A stretch of DNA of 64,000 nt, from assembly GCF_002117485.1 (NCBI RefSeq), contig NZ_CP021030.1:2545001-2609000 (forward strand), given 5' to 3'. Below the pieces are notes generated by a model, which saw only the letters and a program-made list of their open reading frames with translations, had not been told where the DNA came from and searched no databases. The position numbers were made by a program, and so were the translations under genes. Origin of the DNA: Rhizobium sp. NXC14 (lineage in GTDB: Bacteria; Pseudomonadota; Alphaproteobacteria; Rhizobiales; Rhizobiaceae). Positions 30,996 to 32,493 of this stretch are shown piece after piece (the stretch's first letter is position 1; every line of letters starts with the position of its first letter).

Positions 30996-32291
30996 TCATG
31001 CCGCCGATCCGCTCTCGACCGGCTCTCCATTGGGCATACGGACCGCAAGTCGCCGGTCGATAAAAGCTGCAAAAAACGCTGCCGACAAGGCAAGTGACGC
31101 CGATGTCAGCAACATCGCAAACAGCGTCGACACTGCTCCTGCCTCTCGGAGAAACAGCCCGGCGATCGAAGCGATCAGCGCGGCGCCGGCGATCGACATG
31201 GCTGCGGCAAGGCCTGCAGCGGTGCCGGCGAGATGGGCGCGAACCGACATCACGCCCAGATTGGCGGCCGGAAAGGTCAAGCCATTGCCGATGCCGATGA
31301 ACATACAGGGTCCGAAAAATGCCAGGACATGCGTGACGCCCGAGATCGACAAGATCAGCCCCAAAAGCAGACCCATGCACGTCGATAAACGCGCAATGAC
31401 GAGCGTGGTGCTGAGCGATTTCCTCGTCAATCGGGCAGCGAGATAACTGCCCAGAATGAATCCCGCGGGAACCATTCCCATGAAGAAGCCCAGTTTCGCG
31501 CTCGACCCACCGAGTGAGGAACTGACTGCCAAGGAAGCGCCTCCGAGGAAGATATAGAGAGTGCCGGTGGGGCAGGCCATGCACAGCGTATAGGCCCAGA
31601 ACCGCGCCGAACCGAGAATCTGCCTGTAGGAAGCAAGGTAATTGCCTGTTGGTCTCGACGCGGGTCCGGCTGTTTCCTTCAGCTCGCGCATGGAAACGGC
31701 GAGGATGGCTGCGCCTATCAGCGCAAGAGCGATGAAGATCGCCCGCCATCCGAACGCTTCGTCGAGAATGCCGCCGACGCTCGGGCCGAGCATCGGCGCG
31801 ATAGCCCATCCCATGGCGGCGTAGCCGATCCTGTTGGCGGCCCCGCGTTCGCCCGCCGTCTCCTTGATGGCAACGAGAGCGACGCAGAAGCAGGCGGCGA
31901 TCGACGCCTGCATCACGCGAAACAACAGGAAGATGCCGATATTGGGCGCCAGCGCGCAGCCGATCGACGCGACAATGAAAATGGAAACGGCGATCAGCGC
32001 GACCGGCCGGCGCCCATAACGATCCGACATCGCGCCGGCGACGATTTCCGTAAGGGCATTGATGATCGCGTAGCCCGCAATGGAAAGATTGACGATCGCG
32101 AAATCGGCCTGGAACGTGGCGGCGATATTTGGCAGCGCCGGCAGATATATATTGACCGGCAACACCGAGAGCGCCGTCAGCAGGAGAAGGATCGTACGTC
32201 GGGGCGCCGCAGTCGAAGTCGCCGCCGCCTTCTCGGTCAGGCGGTTGCCGGAAGTCTGCGCAGAATTGTCGCGTGACATGGTCTTGTCCAT
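30996..32291 (-). CDS. MFS multidrug efflux transporter, Bcr/CflA family
   Basis: The 431-residue protein has 12 predicted membrane helices. Motif A is GAMSDRYGRRPVALI, preceded by LPALPNIAATFQADFAIVN (the Bcr/CflA first loop), then RVMQASIAACFCVALVAIKE and GYAAMGWAIAPMLGPSVGG. Members export chloramphenicol, florfenicol, bicyclomycin and related drugs. The start is uncertain: ATG 32291 or 32279 are possible, and TTG 32333 opens the frame, none with a strong ribosome site. A leader peptide, antiterminator and terminator lie just upstream (separate entries), so expression is probably controlled by attenuation. A LysR gene is divergent. Confidence 0.88.
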   Translation of the reverse strand: MDKTMSRDNSAQTSGNRLTEKAAATSTAAPRRTILLLLTALSVLPVNIYLPALPNIAATFQADFAIVNLSIAGYAIINALTEIVAGAMSDRYGRRPVALIAVSIFIVASIGCALAPNIGIFLLFRVMQASIAACFCVALVAIKETAGERGAANRIGYAAMGWAIAPMLGPSVGGILDEAFGWRAIFIALALIGAAILAVSMRELKETAGPASRPTGNYLASYRQILGSARFWAYTLCMACPTGTLYIFLGGASLAVSSSLGGSSAKLGFFMGMVPAGFILGSYLAARLTRKSLSTTLVIARLSTCMGLLLGLILSISGVTHVLAFFGPCMFIGIGNGLTFPAANLGVMSVRAHLAGTAAGLAAAMSIAGAALIASIAGLFLREAGAVSTLFAMLLTSASLALSAAFFAAFIDRRLAVRMPNGEPVESGSAA

Positions 32292-32344
32292 GGTGTCAGG
32301 GAGATTGTGGGAATCCGACGAGGCGCAGCGCAAATTCAGAGCAC

Positions 32345-32387
32345 AAAAAAAGCCCCGTCAGGAGCTTGATTTACCGCGCATGGGGCT
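32345..32387 (-). terminator. Attenuator: intrinsic terminator in the efflux gene leader
   Basis: On the minus strand AGCCCC (32387-32382) pairs with GGGGCT (32356-32351), directly followed by seven T (32351-32345). The loop is 25 bases, longer than usual. It lies about 54 bases before the efflux gene start and after the leader peptide stop, so it should stop transcription before the gene unless the 5' arm is sequestered. Confidence 0.65.
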
Positions 32388-32422
32388 GATCGCCGGATGG
32401 TTACACCATCCTGCCCATGCGC
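32376..32422 (-). promoter_or_regulatory. Antiterminator pairing that competes with the attenuator
   Basis: GCGCATGGG within the leader peptide codons (32422-32414) is exactly complementary to CCCATGCGC (32384-32376). That downstream segment overlaps the 5' arm of the terminator (AGCCCC), so the two structures cannot coexist. Between them GGATGG and CCATCC form a 6-bp hairpin around the leader stop codon. Confidence 0.6.
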
Positions 32423-32457
32423 CCTATCACCATGACAAGAACCATTGCGATCTTCAT
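32401..32457 (-). CDS. Leader peptide of the efflux gene (18 aa)
   Basis: ATG 32457 to TAA 32401 encodes MKIAMVLVMVIGRMGRMV. It sits between the promoter and the terminator of the Bcr/CflA-type gene. Five of its 18 codons are Met, and it ends with two Arg-Met pairs. The antiterminator 5' strand lies in codons 12-16. A ribosome finishing the peptide would cover that strand and allow termination; a ribosome stalled earlier, for example by a translation inhibitor, would free it. No Shine-Dalgarno sequence is visible and the predicted transcription start is within a few bases, so it may be translated from a leaderless mRNA. This is inference from sequence only. Confidence 0.55.
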   Translation of the reverse strand: MKIAMVLVMVIGRMGRMV

Positions 32458-32464
32458 GACCGTA

Positions 32465-32493
32465 CAGCTAGACAGAAATTTCCATCTCGTCAA
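32465..32493 (-). promoter_or_regulatory. Promoter of the leader peptide and efflux gene
   Basis: TTGACG (32493-32488) and TAGCTG (32470-32465) are 17 bases apart on the minus strand. The -10 box can also be read as CTAGCT with 16-base spacing, close to the rhizobial CTATAT. Transcription would start at about 32458-32460, at the leader peptide ATG. Confidence 0.5.

Follow-up and report, generated by a model that had tools for sequence, protein, structure and literature searches.

In E. coli, the attenuators ivbL-ilvBN and ilvL-ilvGMEDA combine branched-chain codons in a leader peptide with an intrinsic terminator and a classical antiterminator, and have biosynthetic genes as their targets, and the erm and cat leader peptides, which are drug-responsive, are located before resistance genes. 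Within the alphaproteobacteria, an “ilvB leader peptide” is named in the available part of PMC1273637 and an “ilvIH cis regulatory” element of S. meliloti in that of PMC2573895, both citing Vitreschak et al. 2004, and the leaderless trpL of S. meliloti is, going by the available parts of PMC10117765 and PMC7298713, a precedent for a leaderless leader open reading frame (ORF).

The leader described here precedes an MFS transporter gene in the window, i.e., the whole 64,000-nt stretch of Rhizobium sp. NXC14 DNA that was analyzed, and it quite probably represents a leaderless ilv-type branched-chain amino acid attenuator that was duplicated and recruited to an EmrD/Bcr-type exporter gene, the transcription of which it would control; its translation, the leaderless start, the response to branched-chain amino acids and the efflux activity are what we infer. 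It resembles the E. coli leaders in its branched-chain codons and terminator, and differs from them in that their targets are biosynthetic and that they have an antiterminator, none having been found in the window leader, whereas with the erm/cat leaders it shares a leader peptide before a resistance-type gene, but has cognate-amino-acid codons and no drug-specific motif that could be seen. The likeness to the alphaproteobacterial ilvB/ilvIH attenuator, as far as the available parts of the two papers describe the latter, lies in a leader peptide before ilvI/ilvB, an RF02502 copy with a Leu/Val/Ile peptide, the hairpin P1 and a terminator being located before ilvI in NXC14 itself, whereas the target in the window is an MFS transporter and there is an extra post-terminator stem that is missing in the ilvI copies. 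The S. meliloti trpL/rnTrpL/peTrpL system, in the available parts of PMC7298713 and PMC10117765, is alike in its leaderless leader-peptide ORF, in being a rhizobial attenuator and in its link to drug efflux, but has Trp codons and influences efflux in trans, via smeABR, rather than as a cis leader of a pump gene.

An earlier sequence-only reading had taken the whole system to be undescribed, which does not hold for the ilv version, known in alphaproteobacteria (PMC1273637 and PMC2573895, in the parts available); the version before the transporter was not found described in the literature searched by title and abstract start (subscription papers being mostly outside this scope); an exporter as the target of an amino-acid-biosynthesis attenuator was likewise not found described there. 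Words beginning with ilv are absent from the available main text of two R. etli RNA papers (PMC2881028, PMC4167512) and of a Rhizobiales sRNA paper (PMC3927594).

Parts of the leader and its family

All of the letters that the sequence-only reading had relied upon are in place (the promoter hexamers, ATG 32457, the 18-codon ORF, GCGCATGGG/CCCATGCGC, AGCCCC 32387-32382, GGGGCT 32356-32351 and seven T at 32351-32345), whereas the boundary that it had set at 32291 had to be moved, as the alignment of orthologues puts the transporter start at ATG 32279. The features are:

32465..32493, minus strand: promoter TTGACG-17-TAGCTG (TTGACG 32493-32488, 17-nt spacer, TAGCTG 32470-32465), read from the sequence
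32401..32457, minus strand: leader-peptide ORF MKIAMVLVMVIGRMGRMV, 18 codons and stop TAA, ATG at 32457, predicted to be leaderless
within 32401..32457, minus strand: control codons V6 L7 V8 M9 V10 I11, read from the leader ORF
32376..32422, minus strand: hairpin P1, arms GCGCATGGG (32422-32414) and CCCATGCGC (32384-32376), from folding and cross-family compensatory changes
32411-32395, minus strand: inner hairpin of P1, with the leader stop codon in or adjoining its loop
32345..32367, minus strand: intrinsic terminator, AAGCTCC (32367-32361), loop TGAC, GGGGCTT (32356-32350), U-tract 32351-32345
32317..32326, minus strand: post-terminator GCGCCTCGTC, complementary to terminator GACGGGGC (32359-32352)
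32335..32455, minus strand: RF02502 (Atu_C8) match, 100.5 bits, gathering score 50
30996..32279, minus strand: MFS transporter gene, EmrD/Bcr-CflA-like, start ATG 32279 by orthologue alignment, with an in-frame ATG upstream at 32291

Across loci, promoters were compared by the TTGAC-to-ATG distance only, not by their -10 hexamers: from the start of TTGAC to the leader ATG it is 35-37 nt in 57/57 transporter-linked loci and 37 nt in all 33 ilvI-linked copies, a spacing that would place +1 at or next to the A of the leader ATG. The possible leaderless start that had been proposed earlier is thus backed, by this geometry only. Some ilvI leaders of other families, judged by eye, apparently have a Shine-Dalgarno sequence instead.

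The window leader is a full-model match to RF02502 at twice the gathering score, so that by sequence and structure it falls within the ilv-type attenuators, even though the gene downstream is an MFS transporter rather than one for branched-chain amino acid biosynthesis. Atu_C8 is entered in Rfam as a “Rhizobiales sRNA” of type sRNA, but at the loci examined here it forms the 5' leader of either ilvI, an orphan paralogue of ilvI, or an MFS gene. The NXC14 genome has two copies, the other one (L001) being located about 174 nt upstream of ilvI, which encodes the acetolactate synthase large subunit. Matches were found in 48 of 61 genomes (NXC14 and 60 relatives; the 13 without one all belong to other families) and in 240/247 genomes of the wider family. 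Wherever the first copy was looked up within the genus, it was upstream of ilvI (33/33, from among 37 genus genomes), as were the matches in other families (11/11), and, because of this consistency, RF02502 looks like the known alphaproteobacterial ilv leader, with the window copy as its paralogue. Rfam's A. tumefaciens seed, we infer, is likewise the ilvI leader. Taken together, the loci suggest that the “sRNA” Atu_C8 is a cis leader.

Leader ORF and RNA structure

The ORF table comprises 117 rows (76 transporter-linked, 33 ilvI-linked and 8 ilv2-linked, ilv2 being the lone ilvI paralogue discussed below; the named and unnamed sets share some genomes). The ORF has 18 codons in 116 rows (19 in L120) and begins with ATG in 116 (L052 has ATT, then ATG), the ilvI- and ilv2-linked rows having both properties without exception (33/33 and 8/8) and the transporter-linked ones having each of them in 75/76, with different exceptions. 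The place of the stop is fixed as well, the codon being TAA or TAG in transporter-linked rows and also TGA in ilv2-linked ones. As expected of an ilv-type leader, the short ORF is conserved and contains a stretch of cognate codons for Leu, Val and Ile. In the set of 52 distinct transporter-linked ORFs, Val is invariant at codon 10 (GTG 26, GTA 25, GTT 1), codon 9 is Val in 51, codon 8 is Val, Ile or Ala, codon 7 is Leu in 41 and codon 6 is Val in 44. Methionine, which had been stressed in the reading of a Met-rich leader under drug-responsive control, did not turn out to be what is conserved outside of the hairpin: Met 5 is found in 26/52 ORFs and Met 9 in the window only, and the conserved Met 14 and Met 17 lie inside P1, which spans codons 13-18. 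Inspected by eye, the ORF table showed no drug-specific stalling motif in residues other than those of the Leu/Val/Ile run or those encoded in the hairpin.

The pN/pS of transporter-linked ORFs is 0.32 over codons 6-10, and over codons 2-12 it is 0.77 in frame vs. 1.17 in frame +2; the ilv2-linked ORFs give 0.39 vs. 1.04. For the ilvI-linked ORFs the frames are alike (0.85 vs. 0.87 and 0.87), and the value for codons 6-10 is 1.73, from very few changes. The coding signal over codons 2-12 of the leader ORF is weak.

The piece 32450-32270, covering the greater part of the leader and extending into the start of the transporter, gave a better fold than 200/200 dinucleotide shuffles (z -3.9). The conservation among orthologues, set as a test beforehand, came out in favor of the leader: ORF length, start and stop positions and the distance to the transporter are kept, and each of the two hairpins has compensatory changes when families are compared, 13 of the 19 consensus pairs having two-sided changes. 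An ORF-overlapping hairpin and an intrinsic terminator, both with covariation, are thus found as in ilv-type leaders. Within an alignment of 37 transporter-linked leaders (the window and 36 of the 57 named loci; the sequence of L124 is cut short), only 3/22 pairs show two-sided changes, because these sequences are alike.

The pairings themselves had to be redrawn. The terminator had been read as AGCCCC/GGGGCT, but the stable hairpin is AAGCTCC/GGGGCTT, AGCCCC being present in just 7 of the 37 aligned leaders, and P1 (GCGCATGGG:CCCATGCGC with the inner hairpin), supposed to exclude the terminator, does not overlap its true arms, the two being mutually compatible and coexisting. With the ribosome footprint masked at the stall, the terminator stays ahead of any alternative by a mean of 4.3-4.7 kcal/mol in transporter-linked leaders (n = 56) and by 4.6-6.2 kcal/mol in ilvI-linked copies (n = 33, no favored alternative, without a shuffled control); an alternative within 2.5 kcal/mol of the terminator is seen in 10/56 transporter-linked leaders vs. 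117/280 shuffles. The window itself has an alternative only 1.9-2.3 kcal/mol behind at the masked stall, but the pairing of the proposed antiterminator strand with the terminator 3' arm is no better than that of a shuffled segment. A candidate of this kind, segment 2 with the terminator 3' arm (at least 4 pairs), is available in 53/56 real leaders but also in 219/280 segment-2 shuffles, which compete even better (mean gap 3.3 vs. 4.7 kcal/mol), and was rejected as a general mechanism. No antiterminator beating shuffled controls was found among transporter-linked copies by masked-ribosome folding with the terminator forbidden. What stands of the attenuator as originally read is, then, a translated-leader attenuator of the transporter, and what falls is its mutually exclusive pair, its drug/Met logic and the novelty of the whole system. 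In L102 and L140 the alternative pairing equals the minimum, and in one long-range fold (32285-32457, minus strand) the leader ORF is paired with the transporter start region.

Linkage to the transporter and proposed mechanism

The transporter matches PF07690 and also TIGR00710 (Bcr/CflA), the latter with 182.2 bits, under the curated cut-off of 200.9, and its top-scoring solved structure is EmrD (2gfp). A GPxxGG motif, which we take to be the antiporter motif C, is present in 64/65 transporter loci (a stricter motif C pattern in 0/65), making export likelier than import, and the protein is thus predicted, from its sequence, to be more likely an exporter.

A protein search yielded 65 named transporter loci, i.e., 57 assessable rhizobial ones, seven non-alphaproteobacterial ones and L144, which has no upstream DNA. 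All 57 assessable loci have the leader, about 160-200 nt ahead of the transporter (56 by pattern, and L119 with one pattern mismatch). They come from Rhizobium, Mesorhizobium and Phyllobacterium, or from records with no name other than “Rhizobiales bacterium”, are mostly of one genus and are not independent. The leader is absent from the seven non-alphaproteobacterial homologues (six Actinobacteria, one Variovorax); an Rfam scan of 20 of the 65 loci gave RF02502 in 13/13 rhizobial ones and 0/7 others. The leader also accompanies more distant homologues (45-49% identity) from three further genera of the family (L083-L085). Shared neighborhood was rejected as the source of this linkage, as the commonest neighbor cluster is found in only 15/65 loci (about 3 kb flanks with mechanical ORFs, some of which are perhaps spurious). 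The leader-free homologues L130, L141, L143, L147 and L142 from Actinobacteria and Variovorax are 58-66% identical, which suggests a horizontal transfer of the transporter gene.

The presence of the transporter (E <= 1e-80) was also compared with leader copy number over 120 genomes of the genus: at least two copies are found in 63 of the 65 transporter-positive genomes (with the place of the second copy looked up in a minority of them), and among the 55 transporter-negative ones, one copy is found in 23 and two in 32 (Fisher p about 1e-7, a value that ignores kinship). The two exceptions, G329 and G343, each lack the transporter leader. In G329 (L198) the transporter is truncated at its 5' end, with the leader lost too, and G343 has a divergent homologue without a leader. 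Several transporter matches contain an internal stop (e.g., G019, G353, G314, G012), pointing to either gene decay or a match running past the true stop. Row L086 was excluded (29.6 bits, below cut-off, with the match overlapping a dehydrogenase-like ORF).

The leader is kept before the transporter in several genera, so that the pump probably responds to starvation for amino acids. In the mechanism envisaged, RNA polymerase would start at or next to the leader ATG and ribosomes would load directly on the leaderless 18-codon ORF. With charged Leu-, Val- and Ile-tRNA plentiful, the ribosome would clear codons 6-11, reach the stop inside P1 and depart, upon which P1 and the terminator would form and transcription would end at the U-tract, leaving an RNA of about 113 nt, i.e., Rfam's sRNA. 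When these tRNAs are short, a ribosome stalled over codons 6-11 would cover the P1 5' arm, allowing more readthrough into the transporter. A starvation-opened exporter makes sense if the transporter removes what causes the starvation, and the exported compound would likely be the cause of the branched-chain shortage, be it a toxic intermediate or something that inhibits acetolactate synthase or the cognate tRNA synthetases. What speaks against an attenuator is that no antiterminator was found, that the coding signal is weak and that the target lies outside the branched-chain amino acid genes.

The lack of an antiterminator, the location of codons 13-18 in P1 and the ilvI-linked ORFs without an in-frame coding signal would also suit a constitutive partial terminator without any regulation, its ORF persisting along with the RNA structure, but in transporter-linked leaders synonymous changes preserve Leu/Val/Ile at codons 6-10, a part of the ORF that is not in P1, and the places of start and stop are kept although stop codons vary, making this reading highly improbable. 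Stalling by a translation inhibitor, as in the erm/cat leaders, would turn on the pump through much the same readthrough, as any slow-down on the leader could, and the product does resemble drug exporters; the conserved part outside the hairpin, however, is mainly the Val/Leu/Ile run that is common to the ilvI leader, no other stalling motif was seen and Met outside the hairpin is not conserved, so that we regard drug-responsive stalling as very unlikely.

It is also conceivable, if rather unlikely, that the short RNA acts in trans as an sRNA, or as a dual RNA/peptide like rnTrpL/peTrpL of S. meliloti, its place before the transporter being less important. The Rfam type of RF02502 agrees with this, as does the terminated trp leader RNA of S. 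meliloti acting in trans and its peptide acting on a multidrug efflux operon (according to the available part of PMC7298713), whereas the near-fixed distance to one gene at 57/57 loci with differing neighborhoods, and the position upstream of ilvI at the 44/44 other loci, are marks of a cis element, with which an additional action in trans would be compatible. The preferred reading, that of a recruited ilv-type attenuator, offers a testable hint at the role of an orphan drug-pump-like gene. As some rhizobial symbioses are limited by the supply of branched-chain amino acids (“symbiotic auxotrophy”, in the available part of PMC2978685), an exporter that opens upon starvation may be of importance in the nodule.

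A second target and the post-terminator stem

In 27 unselected two-copy genomes, the second leader was found before the transporter in 19 and before ilv2, a lone ilvI paralogue (68-74% identical), in eight, none of these eight having a transporter match. A further 14 genomes, picked as two-copy and transporter-negative, have ilv2 in 14/14; being chosen by these very properties, they inform on the nature of the second copy, not on exclusion. The target of the second copy was thereby examined in 22 of the 32 transporter-negative two-copy genomes. The transporter and ilv2 seem to replace each other between genomes, an exclusion that rests on the eight unselected genomes rather than on 22, and in G314, picked as a three-copy genome, a leader precedes each of ilvI, ilv2 and the transporter. 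The ilv2 loci with a leader of their own are L036, L043-L049, L181-L193, L195 and L196. Behind the normal ilvI, ilvH was found in 10/10 loci checked, and behind ilv2, within a few hundred bases downstream, in 0/10 (L036, L043-L049, L195, L196). The valine feedback control of the enzyme is carried by ilvH, for which reason an ilv2 without it, in the transporter's place, fits the idea of an exporter that removes an inhibitor; ilv2 is possibly a feedback-insensitive acetolactate synthase.

Transporter-linked leaders carry GCGCCTCGTCAG behind the U-tract, which pairs with the loop of the terminator and its 3' arm CTGACGGGGC. A duplex of below -15 kcal/mol is seen in 55/57 named transporter loci vs. 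20/285 shuffles, and, in the genus set, which overlaps the 57, in 19/19 transporter-linked rows (shuffles 24/190); it is found in 8/8 ilv2-linked rows (shuffles 11/80), in none of the 33 ilvI-linked copies (shuffles 8/330) and in 1/11 distant copies (shuffles 7/110). The stem marks transporter- and ilv2-leaders as one derived subtype. It can only form once the polymerase is past the U-tract, and our guess is that it serves as a lock on the readthrough RNA. We put forward tentatively, as a possibility somewhat on the unlikely side, that this derived ilv-leader subtype constitutes a small starvation-triggered defense of rhizobia, in which a shortage of Leu, Val or Ile, such as an acetolactate synthase or cognate tRNA synthetase inhibitor would bring about, would open either an exporter clearing that inhibitor or an ilvH-less second synthase insensitive to it, the sensor reading the damage and not the drug, and the stem locking the readthrough open.

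Other arrangements of additional leader copies were seen as well. In two further genera, G122 and G207 being of one genus, both copies are located before an ilvI-type gene. G348 has a third copy (L194:2496-2800) before a different MFS gene (PF07690/PF05977), with an amino-acid-permease-like gene upstream.
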